DNA of 32,764 nucleotides from Clostridia bacterium. GTDB lineage: Bacteria; Bacillota; Clostridia; JAQVDB01. The first letter of the stretch is position 1, and the number at the start of each line of letters is the position of its first letter. Made by a program: the position numbers and the translations under genes. The stretch lies in assembly GCA_028698525.1 (NCBI GenBank), contig JAQVDB010000024.1:1-32764 (forward strand), read 5' to 3'. Below are positions 20 through 29,557 of the stretch, piece by piece. The notes under the pieces were generated by a model. The model made no database searches and was not told the origin of the DNA. It worked only from the letters and a program-made list of their open reading frames with translations.

Positions 20-1123
20 TCAATACCTGCCATATTCCTCCACCAGTTCATACATCAATTTTATCCTATCCAATTTAGTACCCGGTGGCACCTGATCCCC
101 TGCTGACTGTACTACTCTACAGTTTATTTTTTTAAGCTCAAGCCATTGTTTCACATGCTCTATAAACTTATCTTCCGGTGTGGATGGCAGCCACATACAT
201 GGCGAAACACCGCCCATAACGACCATATTATCCCCTGCCTGCCTTCTAATCTCCATGGGCGTTAAATCCCCAGTAGGTGCAGGTGTACATGCATCCGCAA
301 CATCCACTCCAGTTTGTGCTACTACACCTATAATATCCTTCAGTCTGCCGTCCAAGTGGGCAGAAACAGTCTTTCCTGCTGCATGTAATGTATCAGCTAT
401 CCCCTTGTAGTGTTCAAAGCTATACTTTTTAAACATTGGTGGTGGCTGTACATCTCCCGAAAGATTATCTCCGAATATCATATGAGGAGCAGGGCCCCTG
501 GCGCATATATTCACTATTTCCATGTGTTTTTGGTTGTATGTATCTATGTACTCTTGTACCAGTTCAGGGTAATCAACGGTGGCATATATAGTATTCTCCA
601 CACCCATATAATAGGATATCAGAGATCCCAGCCCGGTATACCCCATACTAGGAAAAGCCAGTCCATTAGGTGCACAATATCGCTCCATTATATCCCATTG
701 ATCATATCTAGGTCTATATCTCTTTCCTTTTGTATATCTTATAAATATCCTTAAATCTTTCTCATTCTCTATGGCCTCTTTTACAATTACCCATGAAGAA
801 ATATCATAGTTAAATTTTCTGATCATCTGCACTTCTCCATCAGGGGTTATAAAAGTTTCAACTGCCATATCTTTTTTTAATTCCCTTTCGTGCCTTATAC
901 CGTCTTCATAATACTCTTCAAATAAACTTCCCATCTCAATATACATACCTGCTTTTACTTCATCATGCAAATCCTTTAACTCTCTAGTTCTATTGGATAT
1001 AGTGAAGAGGTTCCATAACCCACCACTCTCTGCCCTGTACCAATGTCCTAAATCTAAAAAATAAGGCACTCTATCCGGTGTTTCCCCTTTAACTACTTTT
1101 AAAAAACGCTCTCTTTCAGTCAT
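20..1123 (-). CDS. URO-D/MtaA-like family protein (copy 1, Cys-less metal site)
   Basis: A 367-residue protein with the overall pattern of the uroporphyrinogen decarboxylase superfamily, which includes HemE and the cobamide methyltransferases MtaA, MtbA and CmuA. The opening RERFLKVVKGETPDRVP is the usual N-terminus of the non-HemE members. The metal-binding part is recognisable but altered: residues 255-259 read AHLDG where MtaA-type enzymes have H-x-C-G, and residues 340-346 read SAGDQVP where they have a Cys. The likely ligands are therefore His256, Asp258 and Asp343, with no cysteine. It starts by a 4-base ATGA overlap with the upstream AraC regulator, so the two are translationally coupled, and it ends the sugar ABC cluster. 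It is unlikely to be HemE because no heme genes are near and the family features differ. Substrate unknown; a methyl-transfer or lyase-type reaction on a sugar-derived compound is only an inference. Confidence 0.8.
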   Translation of the reverse strand: MTERERFLKVVKGETPDRVPYFLDLGHWYRAESGGLWNLFTISNRTRELKDLHDEVKAGMYIEMGSLFEEYYEDGIRHERELKKDMAVETFITPDGEVQMIRKFNYDISSWVIVKEAIENEKDLRIFIRYTKGKRYRPRYDQWDIMERYCAPNGLAFPSMGYTGLGSLISYYMGVENTIYATVDYPELVQEYIDTYNQKHMEIVNICARGPAPHMIFGDNLSGDVQPPPMFKKYSFEHYKGIADTLHAAGKTVSAHLDGRLKDIIGVVAQTGVDVADACTPAPTGDLTPMEIRRQAGDNMVVMGGVSPCMWLPSTPEDKFIEHVKQWLELKKINCRVVQSAGDQVPPGTKLDRIKLMYELVEEYGRY

Positions 1124-2076
1124 CTCTTTTGTCCCCCTTTATAATCTTTTGGTAACATTCCAGTCACCCTTTTAAACATGCTACAAAAATTGCTTTGGGA
1201 ACTATATCCTACCTTTTTGGAAATCTCTCTTATCGATAGATCCGAATCTCCAATCATTTCTTTTGCAAATTTTACTCTGGTCTCTATCAATTTTTGTTTG
1301 AATGTTTTATTATACAGTTTCCTCATTACCCTATTTAGTTGGCTTACACTCATATGCAGCTCTTGGGCAAGATCCTGGGCTTTTATATCACGATGATAAT
1401 TATCAAATAAAAATGTTTCTATTATAAGGCTTCTCTTATCATCCATCAACCTGCTGGGTACTTTAGAACTTTCATTATCAGAGCCACGAATAAGGCCCCT
1501 GAAAATATCTATAATAATACCTACAAATATACTTTGTATTTTTTCATAATATCCTATTCTTTTAAAATAAAATTCATCATGAATAGCTTTTATCTTGTAA
1601 AATATTCTAACACTGCGTTCTGTATCGGTACAATAATAATACTTGAGATTTGATAATATATCGACTATCTGTTTTGTTTCATAACAAAAATACTCATCAT
1701 CGCCATCCTTTAACTTTTTATAATTAAACCTCATACAATATTTGTATATAAGGTTCTCCTCTGTTTCCTCTCTTCTGTGATAAACCCCTGGAGCCAAAAT
1801 ATAAAAACTTTTAGGCAGTATTTTTATCTTCTTATCGTCTATATGCAATGTACCCTTGCCATCATATATAAAGTGTACCTCAAAAAAAGCATGGGTGTGC
1901 CAATCTAGTCTATATTGATGTTTTTTTTGAAAAAACCCATCATCTAATATTATGTCAAATAAGACATAACCCAATTTGACTTTTAAGTCTATATTCCTAA
2001 AATCATCTGCTAAATCCATATAGCTTTCATCCCTTAATTCCATCAATTGATACACAATTATATCATCCAAAACCAT
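1120..2076 (-). CDS. AraC-family transcriptional regulator with cupin sensor domain
   Basis: A 318-residue AraC/XylS-type regulator. The N-terminal half has a cupin-like sensor (DWHTHAFFEVHFI, then a GKGTLHID strand and LPKSFYILAPGVYHRRE, roughly residues 55-130). The C-terminal 100 residues form the double helix-turn-helix, including LAQELHMSVSQLNRVMRKL and the signature VGYSSQSNFCSMFKRVTGMLP. It lies downstream of the two permease genes and overlaps the URO-D-like gene by 4 bases, so it probably controls this sugar cluster. The start is uncertain: the first ATG (2076) lies in the stem of an 18-bp perfect inverted repeat and has only a weak GAG upstream, while an ATG at 2019 is preceded by AAGGGATG at good spacing. 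Inducer unknown; a sugar is likely. Confidence 0.9.
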   Translation of the reverse strand: MVLDDIIVYQLMELRDESYMDLADDFRNIDLKVKLGYVLFDIILDDGFFQKKHQYRLDWHTHAFFEVHFIYDGKGTLHIDDKKIKILPKSFYILAPGVYHRREETEENLIYKYCMRFNYKKLKDGDDEYFCYETKQIVDILSNLKYYYCTDTERSVRIFYKIKAIHDEFYFKRIGYYEKIQSIFVGIIIDIFRGLIRGSDNESSKVPSRLMDDKRSLIIETFLFDNYHRDIKAQDLAQELHMSVSQLNRVMRKLYNKTFKQKLIETRVKFAKEMIGDSDLSIREISKKVGYSSQSNFCSMFKRVTGMLPKDYKGGQKR

Positions 2077-2107: not shown

Positions 2108-2149
2108 CATTTATCAGTTACCCATGACCCTTTCGGGCACATAATAATA

Positions 2150-2187
2150 TTAGAAAACACACAGCAAAATTGCTGCGTGTTTTCTAA
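2150..2187 (-). terminator. hairpin after the permease gene, probable terminator
   Basis: A long, nearly perfect inverted repeat: the arm starting TTAGAAAACAC and its complement GTGTTTTCTAA close a CAGCAA/TTGCTG inner stem with one mismatch. It lies 24 bases past the stop of the downstream permease gene. The minus-strand 3' flank is TATTATTATG, only moderately U-rich, so termination may be partial. An outer pair of 8-base arms, CAGTTACC (2115-2122) and GGTAACTG (2190-2197), encloses it. Confidence 0.6.
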
Positions 2188-2210
2188 TAGGTAACTGGAA
2201 GTATATTCTA

Positions 2211-3086
2211 TCATCCTTTGACTGCCCCAAGAGTTATACCCTTTGTAAAGTATTTCTGGAATGCAAGGAATACTACAATCATGGGCAGGGAAGATGCTGT
2301 TCCTCCTGCCATAAGCAGTCCATAGTCAGTACCCCATTCCATCTGCAGTCCAGCAACTCCTAAAGGAAGTGTCTTCATGGGGGTGCTCTGGATCAATACT
2401 AATTGCCAAAAATAATCGTTCCAACTAGTCATGAATGTGAATATTGCCAGTGCGCCCATTCCTGGCTTTACCAGTGGCAATACTATGTCCCAAAATGTCC
2501 TAAACTCTGAACATCCGTCTATCTTGGCTGCTTCCAACAGCTCAGTAGGCAATGTCTGGCTAAACTGTTTCATTAGGAATACCCCAAAAGGCCAACCTAC
2601 TGCAGGAAATATCAGCCCCTGATAGCTATCCAGCCAATCCCATTTTGATACCATTGTAAAAAGCGGAACCAATAGCACCTGTCTGGGAAGAGTCATCATT
2701 CCTACGAACAGCCAGAACAATGCCTCTCTACCGGGATATTGCTTTTTGGCCAGCGAATAGCCCGCCATCGCAGATGTAAGACATACAAGCACCATTGTCC
2801 CAAATGCTGTAAACATACTGTTGAACAACCATTTGAATGCAGGGTACTTAAACAGCTTTTCCCAGTTCATTATAGATAGTGTAGACGGGAATATCTCCAG
2901 GGATGATGCAGTTATAGATGCCATAGGTTTGAACGAACCTGTTATCATCCAATAGAATGGAAATAGAAAAAACGCTGCGAACAGGCATATCACTATAACA
3001 GCTACTACATATCCTACCGAAACCCCTTTTTTCTGTCCCACAACCTGTACTTCATCTATCCTAGTACTTACCTTTGCTTTTCCCAT
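2211..3086 (-). CDS. carbohydrate ABC transporter permease, MalG/UgpE type (CUT1)
   Basis: A 291-residue inner-membrane permease. After a polar N-terminus, hydrophobic segments begin at about residue 25 (VAVIVICLFAAFFLFPFYWM). The cytoplasmic EAA loop reads EAAKIDGCSEFRTFWDIVLP, the contact site for the ATPase, and the family-typical MTSWNDYFWQLVL follows. The start is set by a strong AGGAGG-type site before the ATG at 3086. It lies 15 bases after the other permease gene and would form a heterodimer with it, fed by the binding protein upstream. No ATPase gene is in the cluster, so it must use an MsmX/MsmK-like ATPase encoded elsewhere. Substrate probably a mono- or oligosaccharide, not identifiable from sequence. 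Confidence 0.93.
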   Translation of the reverse strand: MGKAKVSTRIDEVQVVGQKKGVSVGYVVAVIVICLFAAFFLFPFYWMITGSFKPMASITASSLEIFPSTLSIMNWEKLFKYPAFKWLFNSMFTAFGTMVLVCLTSAMAGYSLAKKQYPGREALFWLFVGMMTLPRQVLLVPLFTMVSKWDWLDSYQGLIFPAVGWPFGVFLMKQFSQTLPTELLEAAKIDGCSEFRTFWDIVLPLVKPGMGALAIFTFMTSWNDYFWQLVLIQSTPMKTLPLGVAGLQMEWGTDYGLLMAGGTASSLPMIVVFLAFQKYFTKGITLGAVKG

Positions 3087-3101
3087 TCTGCTCCTCCCTC
3101 C

Positions 3102-3989
3102 TTAATATTCCACATCAGTAGATAGGTATTTGTATTGTATTACAGATATTATCACTACTATCACTGATAATATTACACCCATAGCAGATGCAAGTCCGTA
3201 ATTTTGCAGTTCAAACGCTGATTTATACAACGAAAACAATATGGTTGAGGTTCTATAGAAAGGTCCTCCACCTGTCAACAATTGTACTATGGCAAATGTC
3301 TGGAATGAATTTATGGTAGTTATTATTACTATATACAATGTAGTTGGCAATATTAAAGGCCAGTAAATATTTGTAAACTTCTGCCATGCTGTGGCACCAT
3401 CCAGGTCTGCCACCTCAATATAATCTTTTGGTATATTGCCCAATGCAGCTATATATAGGATTATTGGCTGGCCTACCGACAGAGTAAATAGTATTATTAT
3501 CATCGCAGTTAATGCATATCTTTCATCGCCCAACCAGTTTATCGGCTGTGCACCAAATGATTCTATTATCTTGTTCAATATACCGCCTCTAGGGCTGTAT
3601 ATCCATTTCCATACTATAGAAATAGTTACTATAGATGATACTGCGGGCAGATAAAAGACCGCCCTAAAAAATGACCTTGTAAATTCTGATTTATTATATA
3701 TAACTATAGATACAAACAGTGAAAATATCAGTACTAAGGGTACATTACCTATAACAAATAATATAGTGTTTTGTAGTGACTTGATAAATACTTCATCTTT
3801 TAGGAGAAATATAAAATTGCCTAGTCCATTAAATTCATAGCTAGTAGCAGTATAATTATAAAAACTTATAATTATACCTTTTATCATAGGATATACAACA
3901 AAAAGAATAAAAAAGAACATAGCGGGCAACAAAAACATATATCCTGGTAACCATTCTCTTATCCTAACCTGTAAACTCTTCTTTTTCAT
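3102..3989 (-). CDS. carbohydrate ABC transporter permease, MalF/UgpA type (CUT1)
   Basis: A 295-residue membrane permease of the MalF/UgpA/LacF type. It begins with a short basic N-terminus and a first transmembrane segment (LPAMFFFILFVVYPMIKGIIISF, about residues 20-42). The EAA loop is EVADLDGATAWQKFTNIYWP, and the GGGPFYRTSTI turn typical of this half is present near residue 240. The start has GAAAGGAGAG upstream. It lies between the binding protein gene, from which it is separated by 152 bases with a hairpin, and the partner permease. Together they form the translocation channel of an importer with a shared ATPase. Confidence 0.93.
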   Translation of the reverse strand: MKKKSLQVRIREWLPGYMFLLPAMFFFILFVVYPMIKGIIISFYNYTATSYEFNGLGNFIFLLKDEVFIKSLQNTILFVIGNVPLVLIFSLFVSIVIYNKSEFTRSFFRAVFYLPAVSSIVTISIVWKWIYSPRGGILNKIIESFGAQPINWLGDERYALTAMIIILFTLSVGQPIILYIAALGNIPKDYIEVADLDGATAWQKFTNIYWPLILPTTLYIVIITTINSFQTFAIVQLLTGGGPFYRTSTILFSLYKSAFELQNYGLASAMGVILSVIVVIISVIQYKYLSTDVEY

Positions 3990-4093
3990 ATGCTCTCTCC
4001 TTTCAACTAAAAACCTCCCGCTAATAATACCAACATTAACATAATACTATAGAAATTAATTTCATTATATTAGGATTGTAAAAACTAGTAATA

Positions 4094-4128
4094 GATAGAT
4101 GTATCGCTTTTTAGGCGATACATCTATC
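4094..4128 (-). terminator. hairpin between binding protein and permease genes
   Basis: Perfect 14-bp stem (GATAGATGTATCGC and its complement) with a 7-base loop, 14 bases past the binding protein stop. In minus-strand RNA a TTTTT run follows only after 10 bases, so it is probably a partial terminator or an RNA-stabilising hairpin. Such hairpins commonly let the binding protein be made in excess over the permeases. Confidence 0.6.
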
Positions 4129-4141
4129 ATTTTACATAGTG

Positions 4142-5536
4142 CTACTTTTTATTTATTTCTTCTGTACCCTCTTTAGCAAATGCATCTAGAGCTTCTTGTG
4201 CTGTCATCTTGTCTGTCAAAGCTCCCTGAATATTTGGATACCATTTAGTTCTTAAGCCTGCATAATTATTTGCTGTATAAGCAGTATCTGCAGCATATTT
4301 TAACAGCTTCTCTGAGAATATATAATCTTCGTTTTCATACAAACCAGTAATTGTATTTCTCACAGGTATCTGACCTGTGGCCTTAACTGATTCTTCTCTA
4401 TATTTATCGCTATCTAATATGAACTTAACAAGCTTTTTAGCAGCCTCTGCCTTAGCTTCATCTTTATTATCAAATACACAATATCCACTCAACTGAACTT
4501 CCGCTTTAGGATCCTTTCCTTCTGCACTTGGAGGTGGGAACAATACCCATTCAAATTCTTCAGCTTTACCATCGGCTATATATGTCTCATGCAATCCATG
4601 ATGTTGAGCTGATGCAATTATATTTATAGCCGATTTCCCTTGGAAAAATGTCTCTATTGAATCCATAGAAACAGCTGATTCTGCGCCTGGTGCAAACAAG
4701 CCATCTTTATATGCATTTATCATCCATTCTAATCCTTTTACTGCATTTTCATCGTTAAATGTAATTTCCGTATGATCATCACTTATCAGCTCAGCATCAA
4801 ATGCAGACTGTATGAACATCCTCATAGAAGAGTCCCCTTGTTCATTGCCCGCATATATAACCGATGGATATACATCCTTGCCGCTATCTTTTACTGCTTT
4901 TAAAACTGCTTCAAATTCTTCCAACGTCCAAGTTCTATCTTCCTTATCCAAAGGCAACAAATCTTCTTTTCCTATTTCTTTAAAGAAATCTAAGTTTACT
5001 GCTATTCCTATAGCAGCAGCACCGTTCGGATACATATATGTCTTTCCGTCATATTGACAGTCTCTGAGCAAATTTTCCGGTATTTCGCTTTTAACATCTT
5101 CCATAATGTCATCCAGAGGAACTAGCGCCCCTTGAATCCCATAACCTATTATTCTCCCAGGATAATCAAAAAGGATATCAGGTGTATTGTTTGAAGCTAT
5201 GGCAACATTCACCTTTTCAGGCCCGCCATTCCAAGGAATCATCTCGATTTTAACTTTTATGTTCGGATTTTCCTCTTCAAAGTCCGCTATAATTTCATTT
5301 TCAAAATCACCGACTTCTTTTTCCCCTACATTGGTATACCTTGGATACTGCCACCATACTATCTCTACAGCTTCACCTGAATCTTCATCAGATATATCTT
5401 TTCCAGCGTCTTGGGTATCTTCAGTATCCGGATCATCTGTCTTGTCTTCAGCCTTATCACCTGCTCCACAACCAACTGCCACAACTACAAGGCTAAGGAT
5501 AAGAATAACAACTAACAATTTTGATAGTTTTCTCAT
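4142..5536 (-). CDS. sugar ABC transporter substrate-binding lipoprotein (family 1)
   Basis: A 464-residue lipoprotein. The N-terminus MRKLSKLLVVILILSLVVV ends in a lipobox with Cys23 (AVGC), followed by an acidic Asp/Glu-rich linker to about residue 58. The mature domain shows the family-1 solute-binding pattern: VEIVWWQYPRY, then FEEENPNIKVKIEMIPW near residue 100, ASNNTPDILFDYPG, and a C-terminal AADTAYTANNYAGLRTKWYPNIQGAL region. It is the first gene of the CUT1 cluster, preceded by AGGAGGAATTTG, and should be the most abundant product. It would be anchored outside the membrane and hand a carbohydrate to the two permeases downstream. The ligand cannot be told. Confidence 0.92.
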   Translation of the reverse strand: MRKLSKLLVVILILSLVVVAVGCGAGDKAEDKTDDPDTEDTQDAGKDISDEDSGEAVEIVWWQYPRYTNVGEKEVGDFENEIIADFEEENPNIKVKIEMIPWNGGPEKVNVAIASNNTPDILFDYPGRIIGYGIQGALVPLDDIMEDVKSEIPENLLRDCQYDGKTYMYPNGAAAIGIAVNLDFFKEIGKEDLLPLDKEDRTWTLEEFEAVLKAVKDSGKDVYPSVIYAGNEQGDSSMRMFIQSAFDAELISDDHTEITFNDENAVKGLEWMINAYKDGLFAPGAESAVSMDSIETFFQGKSAINIIASAQHHGLHETYIADGKAEEFEWVLFPPPSAEGKDPKAEVQLSGYCVFDNKDEAKAEAAKKLVKFILDSDKYREESVKATGQIPVRNTITGLYENEDYIFSEKLLKYAADTAYTANNYAGLRTKWYPNIQGALTDKMTAQEALDAFAKEGTEEINKK

Positions 5537-10214: not shown

Positions 10215-10705
10215 TTGTCCACCTTCTCGCTCACGTAATTTATCAGTCCCCCAACTTTTATTATATCCTGCATGAACTCTGGAAATGGCTGGGCACTGTA
10301 TTCTTTTCCGGAAGTGATATTTTTTATTATACCTTGGTTGACGTCTACCTCTATCCTATCCCCATCCTTTATCTCTTTTGGCGCTTCAGCACATTCAATA
10401 ATAGGTAAACCTATATTTATCGCATTTCTATAGAATATTCTTGCAAAAGTCTGTGCTATTACACAGCTTATCCCTGAAGCCTTAATTGCAATAGGTGCAT
10501 GTTCCCTGGAAGATCCACAACCAAAATTTTTGCCTGCCACCATAACATCCCCTGGCTGCACCTTATTAAGAAAATCCTTATCCAAATCCTCCATACAATG
10601 ACTGGCTAACTCGTCGGGGTTGGATGTATTCAAGTATCTTGCCGGAATTATTACATCAGTATCTACATTATCACCATATTTTATCACTTTGCCTTCTATG
10701 TTCAT
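10211..10705 (-). CDS. leuD: 3-isopropylmalate dehydratase small subunit
   Basis: A 164-residue swivelling-domain subunit of the aconitase family. The motifs [16 protein letters not shown] and [19 protein letters not shown] are diagnostic. It forms a heterodimer with LeuC, which isomerises 2-isopropylmalate to 3-isopropylmalate, and probably also citramalate to 3-methylmalate here. Its short length matches the form that partners with LeuC of about 420 residues. It starts one base after the leuC stop, with its ribosome site inside the end of leuC, and overlaps leuB by four bases. Confidence 0.96.
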
Positions 10706-10706
10706 T

Positions 10707-11969
10707 TTACACTACCTCCTCTGGCGATGCAATTTTACCGACTATGGCAGAAGCAGCAGCAATTGCAGGGCTTGCAAGGTATACTTCGCTTTCGGGATGC
10801 CCCATTCTTCCTACAAAATTCCTATTGGTAGTAGCTATCGCCCTTTCTCCCTTTGCCAATATGCCCATATGTCCCCCTAAACAAGGTCCACATGTAGGAG
10901 TGCTGACTACAGCGCCTGCTTCTATAAAATCTTGGATCAATCCTTCTTTCATCGCTTGAAGATAAATCTTCTGTGTAGCCGGAAATACAATAGTCCTCAC
11001 ATAAGGTGCCACCTTCCTGCCTTTAAGTATCCCGGCAGCTATTCTCAAATCTTGTATTCTACCATTGGTACACGAACCTATCACTACCTGATCTATCTTT
11101 ATATCCCCTACCTGATCTATAGTTCTGGTGTTTTCAGGTAAGTGAGGGAATGCTACCGTAGGCTTTATCTTGCCTAGATCTATCTCTATTATCCTTTCAT
11201 ATTCCGCATCTTCATCAGCTTTGTATACCTTGTATTCTCTATCTGAATGTTCCCTTATATACTCTACAGTATTTTGGTCTACCTCAAATATTCCATTTTT
11301 AGCCCCTGCCTCTATAGCCATGTTAGCTATTGTAAATCTATCATCCATAGACAGGTTGGATAGCCCCTCACCAGTATATTCCATGGATTTGTATAGAGCT
11401 CCATCCACGCCTATTTTTCCTATTATATTCAATATTACATCCTTGCCTGATACCCATTTGCTCATTTTTCCCTTCAATATAAACTTTATGGCTGCTGGCA
11501 CCTTAAACCAGGCTTGCCCTGTTGCCATACCTGCTGCCATATCAGTGCTGCCTATGCCTGTGGAAAATGCCCCTAAGGCTCCATAAGTACAGGTATGGGA
11601 ATCTGCTCCTATAATCACATCCCCTGCTACCGCCAATCCTTTTTCAGGTATCAAGGCATGCTCTATGCCCATCTGACCTATTTCAAAGTAATTTTTTATC
11701 TTTTTTTGCTGTACAAATTTTCTTATCATCTTACATTGTTCAGCCGACTTTATATCCTTATTGGGAGTAAAATGATCGGGCACTATAGCTACCTTTTGGG
11801 TATCGAACACCTCTTTAGTGCCCACCCTATCAAATTCTTTTATGGCTACCGGTGTGGTCACATCATTTCCCAACACCAAATCAAGTCTAGCTTTTATCAA
11901 TTGTCCTGGCTTCACGCTATCCAGCCCTGCATGGTCAGCTAATATCTTTTGTGTCATAGTCATTCCCAT
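10707..11969 (-). CDS. leuC: 3-isopropylmalate dehydratase large subunit (420-residue type)
   Basis: Aconitase-family large subunit that carries the [4Fe-4S] cluster. Ligands are visible as Cys300 (VIGSCTNGR), Cys360 and Cys363 ([13 protein letters not shown]), and active-site [23 protein letters not shown] is at residues 121-143. At 420 residues it is the archaeal/clostridial short type rather than the roughly 466-residue enterobacterial LeuC. A homoaconitase or methylmalate isomerase is possible by sequence alone, but leuA, leuD and leuB beside it settle the role. The ATG at 11969 follows AAAGGAGG. The first 35 bases overlap the end of cimA in another frame, so the cimA C-terminus is encoded over the leuC ribosome site. 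Confidence 0.95.
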
Positions 11970-18538: not shown

Positions 18539-18571
18539 AACCTTTCGCCCTAAAAACAAGGACGAAAGGTT
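18539..18571 (-). terminator. T-box regulated terminator
   Basis: A 13-bp stem (AACCTTTCGTCCT with AGGGCGAAAGGTT, one G-U pair) and a 7-base loop, followed in minus-strand RNA by TTGTTTTAT. It directly follows the T-box antiterminator and lies 88 bases before the ilvB start. Binding of uncharged tRNA to the T-box should prevent its formation. Confidence 0.9.
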
Positions 18572-18790
18572 CTCCCCTCGTGATACCACCTATATTCACC
18601 GTTATTTCACAATAACAGCCTCATCAGGTTACATAGATAACCCTGCCCATATAACGAAGGCTTTCCGTCAAACACTACTATAATTTCACGTTTGAAGTTC
18701 CGGAGCGAGTTATTAGCATGCCCATGCACCGATTCACAGCAGCCATCGGCTCTCTGAAACATAAAACATGCCTTTTTTCTCCTTCATAAC
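18572..18790 (-). ncRNA. T-box leader with leucine (CUC) specifier
   Basis: Minus-strand RNA with the T-box landmarks. Stem I starts near GAAGGAG (18781-18787). The conserved apical part CAGAGAGCCGATGG... lies at 18729-18756. The specifier loop reads AATAACTCGCTCC with codon CTC at 18707-18709, aligned by the usual position after AA. The antiterminator carries AGGTGGTATCACG (18579-18591), a variant of AGGGTGGTACCGCG. The UGGU in the bulge fits the ACCA end of a tRNA with discriminator A, as tRNA-Leu has. The element should read through when tRNA-Leu is uncharged. The specifier assignment rests on alignment by eye, and stem I looks short and lacks an obvious AGUA motif. Confidence 0.9.
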
Positions 18791-18802
18791 ATTTAATGAT
18801 AT

Positions 18803-22581: not shown

Positions 22582-23583
22582 TCACAATTCATGTCTTGAA
22601 TCAACAAAAGCTTTGAAATTTATAGGAGGTGTGTTTTTAGGAATTTCACAACCTGCACTTAAAATATAACCTGTTCCCCCTATTCTTATACAGTTTTTTG
22701 CAAGTCCTTTAATTTCCTCTACATGCCCGTTTAATATTGCTACTGGGTCCACATTTCCCTTGATACAAATTTTGTTCTGTCTGGATAATTCCTTTGCAAA
22801 TTTTAAATCTACTTTAGAATCTATATTCAATATATCTATACCCAAATCCATGAGCTCTCTAAAGAAGTGCTGTGAGTCCCCACAAATATGGTATTTAACA
22901 ATCGCCCCAGCATCTTTTATTTGCTTTACCAGTCTTTTTGCGTATGGCAAAGCAAACTTTCTATACATATCCGAAGACACTAAGGTAGCAACAGCATCGC
23001 CTATCCCTATAATATCTGCACCTGCTTTTACCTGTGCCTTCCCAAATCTTATTCCCATCTCACAGGCAAACTCTAAAAGCTGCTCTACAAATTTCTCATC
23101 GTCATACATATCTATCATAAAATCATTTAAACCTCTCAAAATAGATGCGCTTTGAAAAGGTGCCTCTACCCAACCTTGGACAGGAATCTGGCCACCTACC
23201 TTTCTTTTAAATTCTCTCACAGCATTTATCTTATCTGTCATCCTTTCAGCATTGAGAGGGTCCGGTATATCTGCATTCAGAAAATCTCTTTTATTCCTAA
23301 ATGCAGCCTTTTTTTCAATAGGCAGGTCGTCTTCAGGATACTCAATAACTGCTCCACAGTCATGTGCCTCTCTATATGCATCTGAATCAGCTGTTACAAT
23401 GTCATATCCGAACTGTTCAACACAATCCAGCTGGGCCTTTACTAACTTTGTATAATCAGTGCAATAGGAATAATATGAAACTCCGCTTGTCTTGGCTGCA
23501 AAGGCCAATACAAAAGGACATACAGGTATTACATCTACATCTTTAAATTTAACGGCATTCATAACTCTCTCGTATGAATTCAT
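22582..23583 (-). CDS. URO-D/MtaA-like family protein (copy 2, His-x-Cys...Cys site)
   Basis: A 333-residue member of the uroporphyrinogen decarboxylase superfamily, closer to corrinoid methyltransferases than copy 1. It keeps the full zinc-thiolate set of MtaA-type enzymes: His232 and Cys234 in YHICGDSQHF, and Cys312 in LSAGCEIPKNTPP. NSYERVMNAVKFKDVDVIPVCP and GIGDAVATLVSSDMYRKFALPYAKRLV also fit. The family transfers methyl groups between cobalamin or corrinoid proteins and thiols such as coenzyme M; no corrinoid protein or activator gene lies nearby. The ATG at 23583 is chosen for the AGAGGGGG site before it; it overlaps the end of the ROK kinase gene by 35 bases. As the last gene of a sugar importer operon, its job is probably tied to that sugar, but the substrate is unknown. 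Confidence 0.85.
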   Translation of the reverse strand: MNSYERVMNAVKFKDVDVIPVCPFVLAFAAKTSGVSYYSYCTDYTKLVKAQLDCVEQFGYDIVTADSDAYREAHDCGAVIEYPEDDLPIEKKAAFRNKRDFLNADIPDPLNAERMTDKINAVREFKRKVGGQIPVQGWVEAPFQSASILRGLNDFMIDMYDDEKFVEQLLEFACEMGIRFGKAQVKAGADIIGIGDAVATLVSSDMYRKFALPYAKRLVKQIKDAGAIVKYHICGDSQHFFRELMDLGIDILNIDSKVDLKFAKELSRQNKICIKGNVDPVAILNGHVEEIKGLAKNCIRIGGTGYILSAGCEIPKNTPPINFKAFVDSRHEL

Positions 23584-24547
23584 TTTTTTCCCCCTCTTCT
23601 TTATTCTTTGAATAGCCATCAATTGCTAGCTTCAATGCACCTAAAAGACCTGACATATCCCCCATCTCTGCTTTAACCATTCTGGGTGGAAAAGGAACAG
23701 TCTGATGTATGTACTCATGTACAATTTCCTTTATGATACCAAAATTATCTGCTATACCTCCTCCTAAAATCAGAACTTCAGGATTCAATATGGTAGATAT
23801 GTTGGATAAAACCATGGCTAAATATTTCGCTTTTCTCTTTATAAACTCTATACATAATCTATCTCTTTGCTTATACCCCCAAAAAACAAGTTGGGTATCT
23901 ATCTTATCAATATTTCCTTCAACCTTTTGTATAAGAATAGTATCTTTATCCTCTTGCAGTAATCTTTTAAAATCCCTTCCTATCGCCATACCACTGAACA
24001 TGTTCTCAAAGGGCGGTATCCCTTTTTCCCATCGATCTAAATCATCAATATCAGTCAGCATATAACCTATTTCTCCTGCAGCATTATTATTTCCCAGGTA
24101 AACACGTTCATCTATTATCACCGCTATACTGGACCCTGTCCCTAGATTTACATAAACACCATTTCTGACAGCCTTGCCCGCACCCTTCCAAACCTCGCCT
24201 AAAGCTGCACATTTTACATCATTCATTATAAAAGTAGGTGCATTATACTCATCGCTAAAGTGTTGCTTTATCATATCTACGCCTAGGTTTTTTATGTTAT
24301 CACAAAGATAAACCTTTTGATCATAATATACCCCTGGAATACCCATCCCTATAGCTCTGAATGAATGTTGACTTAAGCCAGTCATCATTTTTTCTATTGT
24401 ACTTATTATATCTTTCTGCAGGTCAACGCTGTCCAATTCAACCCTAGTAGGTGTGGTAATAGATTTTATTGTTACCCCCTGTTGTGTCCCTATCAACACC
24501 CTAGTGTTTGTGCCTCCCAAGTCAACAGCTATGTATAGATCTCCCAT
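23549..24547 (-). CDS. ROK-family sugar kinase lacking the zinc motif
   Basis: A 332-residue ROK-fold kinase, likely phosphorylating the imported sugar with ATP. ATP-site AVDLGGTNTRVLIG is at residues 7-20, the catalytic base is Asp110 in FIMNDVKCAALGE, phosphate-binding NLGTGSS is at 134-140, and NNAAGEIGYM is at 154-163. Typical glucokinases have a CxCGxxGCxE zinc motif and a His after GEIG; here Tyr replaces the His and no such Cys cluster exists. The gene follows the binding protein gene by 125 bases including a hairpin. Glucokinase, allokinase or N-acetylmannosamine kinase are all possible; the sugar cannot be named. Confidence 0.87.
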   Translation of the reverse strand: MGDLYIAVDLGGTNTRVLIGTQQGVTIKSITTPTRVELDSVDLQKDIISTIEKMMTGLSQHSFRAIGMGIPGVYYDQKVYLCDNIKNLGVDMIKQHFSDEYNAPTFIMNDVKCAALGEVWKGAGKAVRNGVYVNLGTGSSIAVIIDERVYLGNNNAAGEIGYMLTDIDDLDRWEKGIPPFENMFSGMAIGRDFKRLLQEDKDTILIQKVEGNIDKIDTQLVFWGYKQRDRLCIEFIKRKAKYLAMVLSNISTILNPEVLILGGGIADNFGIIKEIVHEYIHQTVPFPPRMVKAEMGDMSGLLGALKLAIDGYSKNKEEGEKNEFIRESYECR

Positions 24548-24632
24548 AATATATCACTTCCTGTCTTATCATTTTAAAAGCAACACCAAGTATACACGAA
24601 CCTGATATATGTGTTGATACTGCTCCATAACA

Positions 24633-24659
24633 AAGGGGATAACACAGTGTTATCCCCTT
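24633..24659 (-). terminator. hairpin after the binding protein gene
   Basis: Perfect 13-bp arms (AAGGGGATAACAC and complement) around one central base, 13 bases past the binding protein stop. The minus-strand flank is TTTGTTATGG, without a proper U-run, so it is more likely a stabilising or partial-termination hairpin than a full terminator. Confidence 0.65.
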
Positions 24660-24672
24660 ACCGGAGTTTATT

Positions 24673-25704
24673 TTAATCCCAAGGCTTTTTGGTAGACCTT
24701 ACTTCTTCGTAGTTTTCATGGGTTACAATTTCAACACCTGTATCTACAAATTCTTCTACTTCTTCACCGTTTATCAATTTAAATAGACTTTCAACGCTCT
24801 TGTAGCCCATCTGATAAAAATCCTGTCCAACCGCTACATCCACCATATCCTCATCAAAATACTGGAGCATTGGATAGAATGCATCCATTGTAACTATGAC
24901 CTTTTCTTCTGTTTTCCACCCTTTCAGGTTTCCTAATGATTCTGGAGGTGCAAAGAATGGCCATCCACCTACAAAGAACCAAGCATCAAGTTCATCATCT
25001 GAAGCAGTATACTGCTCTACCTGTTCAACTGCCTTATTCAAGTCATCCTCACAAGCTTGGGTGGTCACTATCTCAAGGTCGCTTCCTTCTATAGCGTCTT
25101 TAAATCCTTCCATACGGGCTTCTAGGTCGAATGCACCTAATATTCCGGTAAGCTGTGCTACCCTTCCTTTTCCGCCTGTCAACTCCACCATCTTTTCTCC
25201 ACAAATTTTACCTGCTTCATAGTTTTGTGTCCCTGCATAAAAGTATCTGCCACTATCCGGAGAGTCAGCATCAAATGTACTAACCTTTATGCCAGCATCT
25301 ATAGCTTGTTTTAAAACATCTGTAAGTGCATCTGGATGGTTACAGCTTATAGCTATCCCATCTACCTTTTTTTCTATCAATCCTTCCACTACTTCCACCT
25401 GGCTAGGTGCATCGGCTTTCACCGGAGCAACCCATTCTAACATTATCCCTAAGTCTTCTGCCGCTGCCTCTGCCCCGTCCTTCGCATCTAGGAAAACTGG
25501 GTTGCCCAGTTGTTGAGGTACAACAGCGATCACTATGTCCTTACTGCCCCCCCCTTCAGATGAGCTATCATCTTTCTGGCTATCATCTGTTTTGTCTTCA
25601 GCTTCAGTGCTGCTTTCCCCTCCATCTACCTGATCATTACCACAAGCAGCAAATGTCAATACAAGCATACAAATCAGCAAAATTGACACTATCTTTTTCA
25701 ACAT
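24673..25704 (-). CDS. sugar ABC transporter substrate-binding lipoprotein, RbsB type
   Basis: A 343-residue lipoprotein with lipobox TFAAC (Cys21) and an Asp/Ser/Gly-rich linker to about residue 55. The mature part is a periplasmic-binding-protein type 4 domain: DIVIAVVPQQLGNPVFLDAKDGAEAAAEDLG, then VEVVEGLIEKKVDGIAIS, STFDADSPDSGRYFYAGTQNYEAGKICGEKM and MVDVAVGQDFYQMGYKSVESL. It captures a sugar outside the membrane for the RbsC/RbsA-type partners encoded upstream. The ribosome site AAGGAGG is 8 bases before the ATG and follows a 22-base perfect palindrome. Ligand unknown; it is not obviously ribose. Confidence 0.92.
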   Translation of the reverse strand: MLKKIVSILLICMLVLTFAACGNDQVDGGESSTEAEDKTDDSQKDDSSSEGGGSKDIVIAVVPQQLGNPVFLDAKDGAEAAAEDLGIMLEWVAPVKADAPSQVEVVEGLIEKKVDGIAISCNHPDALTDVLKQAIDAGIKVSTFDADSPDSGRYFYAGTQNYEAGKICGEKMVELTGGKGRVAQLTGILGAFDLEARMEGFKDAIEGSDLEIVTTQACEDDLNKAVEQVEQYTASDDELDAWFFVGGWPFFAPPESLGNLKGWKTEEKVIVTMDAFYPMLQYFDEDMVDVAVGQDFYQMGYKSVESLFKLINGEEVEEFVDTGVEIVTHENYEEVRSTKKPWD

Positions 25705-25718
25705 GATAAAACCTCCTT

Positions 25719-25740
25719 AATTTTTTGTTAACAAAAAATT
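25719..25740. repeat. 22-bp perfect palindrome before the binding protein gene
   Basis: A fully self-complementary stretch with core TTTTTTGTTAACAAAAAA, ending at the AAGGAGG site of the binding protein gene. It could be an operator or an mRNA hairpin that affects translation or stability. Confidence 0.75.
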
Positions 25741-25759
25741 AACTCTTTCCTCCTTTCCT

Positions 25760-26746
25760 TTAATTGCTTCTATTTTTTCTCAGCTGATCAGCAGATACTG
25801 CAACAATAATCACTGTCCCTATAACTACCTGCTGCCAATATGCTGAGACATTGAGCAACACGAGTGCATTTCTTAAGACTCCCATTATAGCAGCACCGAA
25901 TATAGTACCGGGAACAGATGCAAAACCGCCTGACAAGCTAGCCCCTCCTATTACAGTAGCTGCTACCGCATCCAACTCATATCCTATACCTGCCGTAGGC
26001 TGCCCAAGACCAAGCCTTGATGCAGTAATAATCCCTGCAAAGGCCGCTAGTGCCCCACATATAGAATAAACAAATAATAGCAGACGCTCTACATTTATAC
26101 CGGATAGTCTTGCTGCTTCCATATTGCCTCCAATAGCAAATATACGTCTTCCTGTAACTGTCTTATTGAGAAATATGTGTACAAGTATTGCTACTCCTAT
26201 CATTATTATCACCGGCACAGGGACAGGACCTACATGTCCTTGACCAAGTTTTAAAAAAGCTTTGGGCAAGTTTGTGATAGGATAACCTCGGGTGAATACG
26301 TAGCAAAGACCTCTGGCTATACTCAATGACCCTAGTGTAGCTATAAACGGAGGAAGTTTTATCTTTGTAACCAAAAAACCATTAAATAACCCAAATATAA
26401 TACCAATCAATATACCTAAAAGTACACCACCCAAAATACCTATACCCCACCTGGCCATACCCAAAGTTGCTATTACACCTGCAAAACCAAATATTGAACC
26501 GATTGAAAGGTCTATACCCGCCGTTATGATAACTAGTGATTCTCCTAATGCCAGTATAGCTATATATGAAAAAGCCCTTGATACCGAAAAAAGATTGTCA
26601 AAAGTTAAAAATTTATCAGATGCTAATGTCATACCTATGCACATTATGATCAATATAATCAGAATGTTTAAAGAAGGCGACTTTCTGATCTTATTAAAGA
26701 CATTGTTTGAATTGTTTATCCTTTGTTTCTTTAGTTGTACATCCAT
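25760..26746 (-). CDS. sugar ABC transporter permease, RbsC type (CUT2)
   Basis: A hydrophobic protein of about 328 residues with eight or more transmembrane segments. Family marks include ALGESLVIITAGIDLSIGSIFGFAGVIA (about 70-97), GLFNGFLVTKIKLPPFIATLGSLSIARG, GRRIFAIGGNMEAARLSGINV and the C-terminal LDAVAATVIGGASLSGGFASVPGTIFGAAIMGVLRN. It forms the homodimeric channel of a ribose-type importer. The ATG at 26746 is chosen because GGGGAGG lies 9 bases upstream; an ATG three codons earlier sits directly on that site. It follows the ATPase gene by 17 bases. Confidence 0.94.
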   Translation of the reverse strand: MDVQLKKQRINNSNNVFNKIRKSPSLNILIILIIMCIGMTLASDKFLTFDNLFSVSRAFSYIAILALGESLVIITAGIDLSIGSIFGFAGVIATLGMARWGIGILGGVLLGILIGIIFGLFNGFLVTKIKLPPFIATLGSLSIARGLCYVFTRGYPITNLPKAFLKLGQGHVGPVPVPVIIMIGVAILVHIFLNKTVTGRRIFAIGGNMEAARLSGINVERLLLFVYSICGALAAFAGIITASRLGLGQPTAGIGYELDAVAATVIGGASLSGGFASVPGTIFGAAIMGVLRNALVLLNVSAYWQQVVIGTVIIVAVSADQLRKNRSN

Positions 26747-26763
26747 GATATACATCCTCCCCT

Positions 26764-28254
26764 TTATTGATTTTGAGCTATTGCCATCTGCATTATTTTG
26801 TTTTGACTAGCCTCTTGTCTGCTCAATTCACCTTTTTTACATCCCTCATGCATCACCATTATCCTGTCACTCATGCCTAAAATTTCAGGCATCTCTGATG
26901 ATATCATTATTATTGCAACCCCTGTTTTGGCCAACTTTGACATCAGTCTGTGTATCTCTTTCTTTGCACCTACATCTATGCCCCTAGTTGGTTCATCTAA
27001 TATGAGAATTTCAGGATTTGTAGCAAGCCATTTTGAGATAACTACCTTTTGTTGATTGCCCCCGCTTAAATTCATCGCCTTTTGTTCTATGCTAGGTGTC
27101 TTTATATCCAATTTATCTACATAATCTTCTGCGATCTTTCCCTCTGCATCTTGATCTATAAACTTATGTCTGCTTATACTTTCAAGATATGGTAAAGTTA
27201 TATTTTCCTTCACAGTCATACCCAATATCAATCCTTGCCCTTTTCTATCTTCCGGCACAAATCCCATCCCGTGTCTTATTGCATCTTCAGCAGAATTAAT
27301 ATTTATTTTTTCACCCCTTACATATATCTCTCCTGCTTCTTTTTTATCCACCCCAAATATAGCTCTCATCACTTCAGTACGACCCGCTCCTACCAATCCA
27401 GCAAATCCTAATATCTCGCCTTTTCTCAGCTTAAAATTTATGTCCTTTAAAAATCCTTTTGTGCTTAAATGTTTGACTTCCAGTACTACATCACCTATGT
27501 TAGTCTCTTCTTTTTCAAACATATTGTTTATCTCTCTGCCTACCATAAGACCTACAACATTTTTCTCGCTTATATCTTGGCCTATTAAGTTACCTACCAT
27601 CTGTCCGTCCCTCATCACCGTAACCCTATCGCATATTTGAAATATCTCATTTAACCTATGTGATATAAACACCACTCCAACACCTTCAGATTTGAGCTTC
27701 AATATTATATCTAATAATATTTTGGTCTCACTCTCTGTTAATGATGATGTAGGCTCATCCATAACTATTATCTTAGAATCAAAAGACAAGGCCCTAGCAA
27801 CTTCCACCATCTGCCTCTGTCCTATTGATAGATCTTGTAAGAGAGTAGTTGTGTCTACATCTAAACCGACCATATCAAGTAATTTTCTGGCTTCTGCATG
27901 CATGGCAGTTTTATCCACAAATATTCCGTTGCGTTTTTCTTTGCCTATAAAAATATTCTCTGCAATATCAAGGTTCAATAACACATTTAATTCCTGGTGT
28001 ATTATGCTTATCCCTAGTTTTTGTGCGTCTAATGGCTTTTGAATATCCACTTTTTTGCCGTTTACGAGTATTTCTCCTTGATCCTTTTTATATACACCCG
28101 TAAGTATCTTCATAAGAGTAGATTTGCCTGCACCATTTTCTCCTACCAAGCCCAGAACCTCTCCCTGATTTATATATATATCAACATTATCCAATGCTAA
28201 TACTCCAGGAAATTGCTTGGTCACACCTTTCATCTGAAGATATGAAACTTCCAT
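26764..28254 (-). CDS. sugar ABC transporter ATPase with two cassettes, RbsA type
   Basis: A 496-residue tandem ATPase driving the CUT2 importer. The first cassette has Walker A GENGAGKST (38-46), signature LSIGQRQMVEVARAL and Walker B IIVMDEPTSSLTESE. The second has the degenerate Walker A GLVGAGRTE normal for this family, signature LSGGNQQKVVISKWL and ILILDEPTRGIDVGAK. It shows the RbsA/MglA pattern; a lone ATPase of other importers would be half this length. GGAGG lies upstream of the ATG at 28254. It is the first transporter gene after the ROK repressor. Confidence 0.95.
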   Translation of the reverse strand: MEVSYLQMKGVTKQFPGVLALDNVDIYINQGEVLGLVGENGAGKSTLMKILTGVYKKDQGEILVNGKKVDIQKPLDAQKLGISIIHQELNVLLNLDIAENIFIGKEKRNGIFVDKTAMHAEARKLLDMVGLDVDTTTLLQDLSIGQRQMVEVARALSFDSKIIVMDEPTSSLTESETKILLDIILKLKSEGVGVVFISHRLNEIFQICDRVTVMRDGQMVGNLIGQDISEKNVVGLMVGREINNMFEKEETNIGDVVLEVKHLSTKGFLKDINFKLRKGEILGFAGLVGAGRTEVMRAIFGVDKKEAGEIYVRGEKININSAEDAIRHGMGFVPEDRKGQGLILGMTVKENITLPYLESISRHKFIDQDAEGKIAEDYVDKLDIKTPSIEQKAMNLSGGNQQKVVISKWLATNPEILILDEPTRGIDVGAKKEIHRLMSKLAKTGVAIIMISSEMPEILGMSDRIMVMHEGCKKGELSRQEASQNKIMQMAIAQNQ

Positions 28255-28255
28255 C

Positions 28256-28327
28256 TTAAATACCTCCTTTTTTGGTCATAATATTTCCAATATTATATAT
28301 TTTTCGACAATTATTTTGCTGTTTCAT
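28256..28327 (-). CDS. possible 23-residue leader peptide before the ATPase gene
   Basis: A short reading frame, MKQQNNCRKIYNIGNIM and six more residues, starts at an ATG preceded by AGGAGGGGAG. Its TAA ends one base before the ATPase start, so it would be translationally coupled to it. No homology recognised; it fills the whole gap between the repressor and the ATPase gene. It may be chance, because the ATPase's own GGAGG lies inside it. Confidence 0.3.
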   Translation of the reverse strand: MKQQNNCRKIYNIGNIMTKKGGI

Positions 28328-28345
28328 CTCCCCTCCTCTATTTAT

Positions 28346-29557
28346 TTAACTTATTATATTGTTGAATATGTATTCGCTGCCTACTGCAAATGCACCATAA
28401 ATTCCTGCTTTTTGACCTAACTCAGCCTTTATTATTCTAGGCCTTATAGGGACTAGCTTTTTTGTAACCTTGATAATCTCATTTATATAAACATCCCCTA
28501 ATCTCAAGGCTTCCCCTCCCATTATTATGATATCGGTATCTAAAATACACATCAGATTAGATATAGCCACTCCTACTATCCTAGCCATTTTGATTACCTG
28601 TTCACTGCAAAGGCTATCATGGTCAACAGCATTTACCACCATATCAAAGTCAATCTTATCTAAATCTCCTTTCACCATGCTTGTTATACAACAATATCTC
28701 CCCTTTTTAATCTCGTTCTTTATATTATTTATAAGTGCATCAATGGAAGCTTTTGATTCAAAATATCCAGTATCAGTATATGTGCCATTTAAGGCCTCTC
28801 TATCAATACACAAAAATCCTATCTCCCCTGCCGCATTATTGCAACCTTCATGCAATTTGCCATCAATAATTATACCCGCTCCTATACCCAACCCTTGCGC
28901 AACGCTTACATATACCATGTTTCTGCGACCTACACCTGCACCATACCACGACTCGCCTAATGCAGCAGTGTTTATATCATTTTTAACTATTACAGGCCGG
29001 TTGAATTTTTGTTCAAATAGTGCTTTTATAGATACATTCTCTATATGTTTCAACTGTGGAGCCATCATAAAGTAACCAGTTTTTTTATCGGGCACACCTG
29101 GCACAGCTACTACAAAAACTTTAATTTTTTCATCAAGTCCTGGAATTCTTTCTAACATGCTATCAATTTTTTGAGTAATCAAAGATACTATCTTATTTAT
29201 ATCTCTATCAGCAGGATAGTTTAGCACTGTCTCGCTCACAATCTCTAAGTCCAAATTTGCGATCCCTATTCTTATTTTTTGATTCGCCAAATCCACACCT
29301 ACTATATACCCATATCCATAGTTGAATTCTATCAATATAGGCTTTCTCCCTCCACAGGATACCCCCCTACCTATTTCTACAAGAATACCCTGTTCTAAAA
29401 GTTTTTCTATATTGACAGAAACGGCAGGAGCACTCAAATCCAAAATCTTGGACAAATCCGCCCTGGACATGGGCCCTCTTTCCCTCATCGCATCTATTAT
29501 TAAATTTTGATTTGTTTTTCTTACTAATTGTTGGTTTGCTGCAGATTGAAATGACAT
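28346..29557 (-). CDS. ROK-family transcriptional repressor (XylR/NagC type)
   Basis: A 403-residue protein joining an N-terminal winged helix (residues 13-62, with MSRADLSKILDLSAPAVSVNIEKLLEQG) to a ROK sugar-binding domain from about residue 84 (YIVGVDLANQKIRIGIA). Asp194 (VKNDINTAALGE), SVAQGLGIGAGI and NAAGEIGFL match the kinase fold. As in the kinase of this cluster, the Cys zinc motif and the His after GEIG are missing (Phe here). It heads the CUT2 cluster and probably represses it until the sugar or sugar phosphate binds. AGGAG lies 7 bases before the ATG, and phased AAGT repeats lie upstream. Confidence 0.92.
   Translation of the reverse strand: MSFQSAANQQLVRKTNQNLIIDAMRERGPMSRADLSKILDLSAPAVSVNIEKLLEQGILVEIGRGVSCGGRKPILIEFNYGYGYIVGVDLANQKIRIGIANLDLEIVSETVLNYPADRDINKIVSLITQKIDSMLERIPGLDEKIKVFVVAVPGVPDKKTGYFMMAPQLKHIENVSIKALFEQKFNRPVIVKNDINTAALGESWYGAGVGRRNMVYVSVAQGLGIGAGIIIDGKLHEGCNNAAGEIGFLCIDREALNGTYTDTGYFESKASIDALINNIKNEIKKGRYCCITSMVKGDLDKIDFDMVVNAVDHDSLCSEQVIKMARIVGVAISNLMCILDTDIIIMGGEALRLGDVYINEIIKVTKKLVPIRPRIIKAELGQKAGIYGAFAVGSEYIFNNIIS

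Follow-up and report, generated by a model that had tools for sequence, protein, structure and literature searches.

The URO-D family takes its name from heme synthesis. In the window (the whole stretch of 32,764 nucleotides that was analysed), two proteins of this superfamily, called copy 1 and copy 2 here, can be compared at the three residues that hold zinc in MtaA-type methyltransferases. Copy 2 carries His-Cys-Cys (HCC) at these positions, and copy 1 was initially annotated, from an alignment made by eye, as having both cysteines replaced by aspartate, giving His-Asp-Asp (HDD). The question is therefore whether the aspartates of copy 1 really stand at the metal positions and, if so, what kind of enzyme such a site would make. 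The features on which the comparison rests are as follows.

20..1123, minus strand: copy 1, URO-D superfamily protein with HDD-type site; intact open reading frame of 367 aa with an ATG start
350..358, minus strand: codons of H256-L257-D258, at the MtaA His-x-Cys position (motif AHLDG), placed by sequence, alignments and conservation
95..97, minus strand: codon of D343, at the second MtaA Cys position, equivalent to C325 of copy 2 (motif SAGDQVP), placed by sequence, alignments and conservation
22582..23622, minus strand: copy 2, MtaA-like URO-D protein, the comparison gene (PF01208, 249 bits)

Copy 1 has a predicted URO-D fold and aspartate at both cysteine ligand positions

Copy 1 belongs to the URO-D superfamily, with a PF01208 score of 72.8 bits (cut-off 23.9). 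It falls outside the MtaA/CmuA family, scoring 25.2 bits against TIGR01463 (cut-off 235.4) and having His-Asp-Asp in place of the His-Cys-Cys of that family, and also outside the HemE family, as TIGR01464 was absent among its matches at E ≤ 0.001. Copy 2 scored 189.7 bits with TIGR01463, which is likewise under the cut-off, and its ligands are H245 and C247 (YHICG) and C325 (SAGCEIP).

An AlphaFold2 model of copy 1 was confident (mean pLDDT 91.9). The predicted fold is a TIM barrel that matched URO-D structures, including HemE (uroporphyrinogen decarboxylase), with Z up to 25.4 and the MtaA structure 4ay7 with Z 25.2 (rmsd 3.6 over 316 residues). The next structural tier was MetE (Z up to 16.7), a related barrel with much lower similarity and a thiol site; the zinc site of MetE is His-Cys-Glu-Cys. 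In a search of solved structures by sequence, copy 1 alone matched none except CdmB, at E 0.76. The MtaA/MtbA/CmuA group thus shares its fold and its three ligand positions with copy 1, but these are His-Cys-Cys zinc methyltransferases, whereas copy 1 has aspartate for both cysteines and sits in a separate clade.

Three comparisons confirmed the replacement. First, BLASTP of copy 1 with copy 2 placed HLDG opposite HICG and SAGD opposite SAGC, at low identity. Second, a profile of the copy 1 branch (A1) compared with MtaA (4ay7) set HxD on HIC, a result that concerns the HxD part only. Third, the A1 versus A2 profile-profile alignment (99.2% probability, 245 columns, 14% identity) set H256, D258, and D343 on H245, C247, and C325. 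The aspartates therefore do not miss the metal positions but fall on the ligand positions.

The initial annotation further held that such a site would be more suited to Mg, Mn, or Fe and to oxygen ligands. Aspartates do suit harder, oxygen-type ligands, and a published rule supports this. According to PMC10418091, S-methyltransferases of the superfamily are His-Cys-Cys, and O-methyltransferases have a carboxylate for one or both cysteines, which favors an oxygen ligand. The cysteine-to-carboxylate swap and its oxygen-ligand meaning are thus already in print in that source. By this rule copy 1, with D258 and D343, has the carboxylates of a substrate-side methyltransferase (MTI) of the O-demethylase type. 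The O-demethylases MtvB, VdmB, OdmB, and MtoB and the chloromethane MTI CdmB are of the same superfamily as copy 1; the O-demethylases are likened to it through the ligand rule, and CdmB is the only one compared with it by sequence.

HDD proteins form a widespread and strictly conserved branch

When genome contigs were scanned, 208 relatives of copy 1 came up, and the best 80 were kept. The conservation alignment consisted of copy 1 and 79 of these 80 (L095, a 172-aa fragment, was left out), and D343 was counted over 79 rows because the L091 row ends before it. H256 and D258 were invariant (80/80), as were D343 and Q344 (79/79). Further conserved residues are the following.

464..469, minus strand: codons of D219-N220, candidate active-site residues; position 219 is Asp in 45 and Glu in 35 of 80 rows, and N220 is present in 80/80
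266..268, minus strand: codon of D286, candidate active-site residue after strand 7; 80/80, and included in one scan pattern
1052..1054, minus strand: codon of D24, present in 80/80 rows of the close branch and replaced by Arg in the relative from L296

D286, D343, and Q344 were part of the scan patterns, so the conservation of these three was partly selected for; D24, N220, H256, and D258 were not in the patterns.

The record titles of the relatives name at least ten phyla. Names that appear include Clostridia, Bacteroidota, Anaerolineae/Chloroflexi, Planctomycetota, Verrucomicrobia, and Lentisphaerae, and further Acidobacteriota, Armatimonadetes, Omnitrophota, Sumerlaeota, Latescibacterota, and others. 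Within a sample of the window's own class, 36 of 391 genomes had a copy 1 relative at E ≤ 1e-10, a count that includes HCD and HDE relatives, and three other genomes of the sample had relatives 62 to 66% identical to copy 1. The sequence, structure, and literature searches of this analysis found no characterised HDD protein.

For the superfamily as a whole, 240 URO-D proteins were compared, a set enriched for copy 1 relatives from which rows covering <70% of the profile or duplicated had been removed (322 to 240). The three ligand positions read HDD in 103, HCC in 25, HCD in 24, HDE in 20, HCH in 8, and HDN in 7, the remainder being rarer types. The pair of aspartates is not a rare motif scattered among degraded copies. 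Large expansions of the family were also seen, with 77, 54, and 48 PF01208 matches in genomes G438, G425, and G430 (4.4, 3.0, and 2.2 Mb).

Trees were built without the three ligand columns. The 240 proteins were thinned to 156 rows (HDD at 50% and others at 70% identity), and an 86-row tree leaves out L091, L228, L140_3492, L200, L038, L208, and L210, of which L038 is HDD. Copy 2 lay within an HCC clade, and copy 1 lay in a well-separated assemblage of HCC, HCD, HDE, and HDD groups. Some features of the 86-row tree stand out. First, the HDD rows required 3 changes, compared to a shuffled mean of 26.4. Second, a 39-row group (support 92) comprised all 33 HDD rows of this tree and, besides them, five HCD rows and a single HDG row. 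Third, the HDE rows were a single clade with support 100. Finally, neither HDD plus HDG as one clade (p-AU 0.449) nor all 50 HxD rows as one clade (p-AU 0.239) was rejected. A clade of its own for the HxD...GD motif, which had been put forward as a check, was thus nearly obtained: the HDD proteins are one group, a real branch on the trees built here, beside the HCD and HDE groups, and its exclusiveness is broken only by the five HCD rows and the one HDG row. Copy 1 is a member of this old and widespread branch.

The trees do not bear out a change of both positions on the way from copy 2 to copy 1. Each copy sits in a deep clade of its own, with HCD and HDE groups between them, and on this ground a derivation of copy 1 from a gene like copy 2 by recent replacement of Cys with Asp was rejected. 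When the tree was rooted on MtaA-like rows, a root that is assumed, the HCD groups branched before HDD and HDE. The HCD and HDE groups between copies 1 and 2 suggest, and this order fits, a stepwise exchange, in which the zinc ligands may have been swapped one by one rather than both at once.

A second HCC clade (HACG, ASCNT), made up of L229 (G418:C2), L211, L217, L218, and L222, was found inside the HCD/HDE/HDD assemblage, away from the MtaA-like proteins. L229 carries corrinoid proteins, and RACo, the reductive activase of such proteins, is on the same contig.

The sugar setting of copy 1 is only partly specific

Copy 1 lies at the edge of its contig, which ends 19 bases past the gene. On the other side are the following features.

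1120..2076, minus strand: AraC-type regulator (Pfam HTH_18, HTH_AraC, AraC_binding), whose stop overlaps the copy 1 start by 4 bases
2148..2189, minus strand: strong terminator-like hairpin, a 19-pair stem followed by a T-rich tail (pattern match only)
2211..5536, minus strand: sugar-type ABC transporter genes, upstream of the AraC gene and copy 1 (by eye from translations)
2211-3086 and 3102-3989, minus strand: the two sugar-type ABC permeases among them (by eye)
4142-5536, minus strand: the sugar-type ABC binding protein (by eye)

The hairpin divides the transporter genes from the AraC gene and copy 1. Copy 2 is also in a sugar locus (window 22582-29557; ROK-type kinase, ribose/xylose-type ABC transporter, and ROK-type regulator, by eye), and no corrinoid gene was seen beside this HCC protein. 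Elsewhere in the window, a T-box leader (RF00230, 112 bits; 18555-18796, minus strand) lies upstream of a cluster of branched-chain amino acid genes (∼18469 down to 5969, by eye).

Around the best 80 of the 208 relatives, several families recurred, each assigned from one representative: sialidase-like BNR proteins (11 loci), HpcH/HpaI aldolases (9), class III aminotransferases (9), Gfo/Idh proteins (9 and 6), aldo/keto reductases (8), SDR proteins (7), GH38 (7), FGGY kinases (6), and other URO-D proteins (14). In some loci the HpcH/HpaI aldolase is directly downstream of the copy 1 relative. The functions of the neighbors vary between loci. As a control, genes ≥7 kb away in the same loci were used (99 versus 99 proteins of 130 to 600 aa, of 116 and 99 drawn), with 25 of 87 and 25 of 104 families listed, so that families with small counts do not appear; GH38 proteins exceed the size range. 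Gfo/Idh proteins were equally common near and ≥7 kb away (5 and 5 of 99). BNR_2 was found in 7 of 99 near proteins and was not among the 25 far families listed, and FGGY_N was found in 3 far proteins and was not among the near families listed. With Gfo/Idh no commoner beside the gene than far from it, the claim of a carbohydrate context is weak: there is a real sugar setting, but only part of it can be tied to the HDD gene itself.

Other neighbors were seen in a few loci. MttB-family genes are near two HDD genes (L066:5924-7333, PF06253, and L084). A small protein turns up near three of copy 1's close relatives (L064:11152-11583, L071:1447-1899, and L072:1670-2143), and the L064 protein has no Pfam match.

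Corrinoid proteins and RACo are found in the genomes but rarely beside HDD genes

With the search applied here, a corrinoid protein was found at none of the 80 loci of the close relatives (best 80 of 208; flanks up to 10 kb) and at none of the loci of the 103 HDD rows of the wider set (unequal flanks). It was found at the loci of 3 of the 25 HCC rows, L041 among them. The best HDD places in the 48 genomes with close relatives number 59; a B12-binding_2 match lies on the same contig as one of them, ∼0.8 Mb off. At the level of the genome, RACo was present in 44 and B12-binding_2 in 44 of the 48 genomes with close copy 1 relatives, and G398 and G427 (2 of the 48; completeness of both not stated) had neither match. 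In the window's own genome, contig C7 encodes a PocR regulator, a corrinoid protein of 210 aa, and RACo.

A link of RACo with the HDD branch in particular was considered and rejected. In the class sample, RACo was found in 31 of 36 genomes with copy 1 relatives compared to 137 of 355 others, but the difference vanished when only URO-D-bearing genomes were compared (31/36 with and 92/106 without copy 1 relatives; P = 1). RACo was present in 123 of 142 genomes with URO-D and in 45 of 249 without it; the URO-D numbers in this sample are first-look candidates, five per genome scored. Within this sample, RACo goes with URO-D genes as a whole.

Two related genomes, L296 and L297, found by comparing places by eye, have a copy 1 relative within ∼5 kb of a corrinoid protein and RACo. 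The order in L296 is a URO-D gene, DUF2284, RACo (PF14574, PF17651), the corrinoid protein (PF02310, PF02607), and four URO-D genes, the last of which is HDD (HWDG, GISDE). This HDD protein (L296:9806-10918, 370 aa) is 22% identical to copy 1, does not have D24 (R instead), and falls inside the 29-row clade of copy 1 (SH-aLRT 98).

In L297 the HDD gene (10529-11465) is in two overlapping frames; the L296 counterpart is intact. The five URO-D genes of each run (L296:3367-10918 and L297) have triplets that all differ (HCN, HDN, HCC, HDC, and HDD, by eye), a pattern that would fit a single corrinoid protein serving several methyltransferases.

A possible O-demethylase and its alternatives

The invariant aspartates of the HDD branch point to an enzyme for oxygen-containing, perhaps sugar-derived, compounds rather than thiols. 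The reading that we tentatively prefer, while giving it somewhat short of an even chance, is that copy 1 is a corrinoid-dependent methyltransferase of the O-demethylase type with an oxygen-favoring metal site, possibly for O-methylated carbohydrates. In this mechanism, the His-Asp-Asp site would bind a divalent metal whose role is to activate oxygen in place of a thiol, and copy 1 would be the MTI of a corrinoid system. Copy 1 would bind the O-methylated compound, the metal would polarise the ether oxygen, and the methyl group would go to Co(I) of a corrinoid protein that is shared and encoded at another locus; contig C7, with its 210-aa corrinoid protein and its RACo, may supply the partners in the window's genome. 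A methylated carbohydrate as the substrate is suggested by the sugar-type transporter and AraC genes beside copy 1, and this is the weakest step of the proposal. The predicted fold, the ligand positions, their conservation, the clade, and the operon of one relative are established here; the metal, the substrate, and the reaction are inferred. Further points in favor are RACo and B12-binding_2 in 44 each of the 48 genomes with close relatives and the sugar-related genes (BNR, HpcH/HpaI aldolase, Gfo/Idh, GH38, and FGGY) near relatives. Against this reading stand the corrinoid-free loci, the two genomes with neither RACo nor B12-binding_2 matches, the unspecific RACo link, the distance of L296 (22%) and its missing D24, and the weak carbohydrate context.

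The initial annotation had argued for a different reaction. The chief alternative of this kind, which we consider less likely, is that copy 1 and its close branch do chemistry other than methyl transfer, as a hard-metal isomerase or epimerase, lyase, or decarboxylase acting on a carbohydrate or sugar acid. The absence of a corrinoid gene near any of the 80 close relatives (best 80 of 208), which also sets them apart from the O-demethylase/CdmB group, would fit such an enzyme, as would the acid-rich conserved pocket (D24, D/E219, N220, and D286) and the adjoining sugar-related genes, including the aldolase directly downstream in some loci; these neighbors, however, differ in function from locus to locus. 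UROD itself is an example of the fold doing non-methyl chemistry. D-Psicose/D-tagatose epimerases and xylose-isomerase-like barrels are TIM barrels with a metal site of His and carboxylates, and Foldseek with the copy 1 model gave weak matches to both (E ∼1e-3 to 5e-5). These are far weaker than the URO-D/MtaA matches (best epimerase E 4.7e-5 versus 5.5e-13) and no better than those of glycosidase barrels, and they were judged generic. A departure from methyl transfer is further put in doubt by the published rule, which ties carboxylates to O-methyltransferases (PMC10418091), and by the HDD relative of the same clade in the corrinoid/RACo operon of L296. A broader proposal in the same direction is also less likely: the HDD branch would be a pan-bacterial set of URO-D-fold metalloenzymes that left thiol chemistry stepwise (HCC to HCD to HDD/HDE), and the copy 1 sub-branch would have dropped corrinoid methyl transfer to act on carbohydrates through a hard-metal site.

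Still less probable is another alkyl transfer through the carboxylate site (halide-, N-, or methyltetrahydrofolate-linked), with or without a metal, as in zinc-free CdmB. According to PMC13222342, CdmB, an MTI of the URO-D superfamily, needs no zinc for its activity, and its structure contains none. The wide variation of the ligand triplets among the 240 sequences (HCC, HCD, HDD, HDE, HCH, HDN, and others) would agree with this, but the three positions are strictly kept in the copy 1 branch, which would not be expected of a metal-free remnant, and the match of CdmB to copy 1 reached only E 0.76.

Decay of copy 1 into a neutral paralogue whose cysteines drifted to aspartate has only the low identity to copy 2 in its favor and is ruled out, as the initial annotation had anticipated in arguing against simple loss, because the ligand and pocket residues are strictly conserved in relatives across phyla (D24, N220, H256, D258, D286, and D343 over 79 relatives), and the reading frame is intact, three more genomes from the class sample hold relatives 62 to 66% identical, and the motif is clustered on the tree.

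Implications for the URO-D superfamily

To the published swap, this analysis adds an HDD branch that is large, spans many phyla, and keeps its ligands strictly, together with its HCD and HDE neighbors and one HDD member in a corrinoid operon. A literature search for URO-D members in carbohydrate clusters and for methylated sugars demethylated by corrinoid systems had no relevant paper among the matches listed, and no anaerobic route for methylated sugars was among them. The three-letter ligand code (HCC, HCD, HDD, HDE, HCH, and HDN) may sort URO-D genes and predict whether their substrates are thiol or oxygen compounds. If it is true that the HDD branch demethylates carbohydrate ethers, it would provide an anaerobic route for methylated sugars; if the branch is not made up of methyltransferases, it would represent new chemistry on an old fold.
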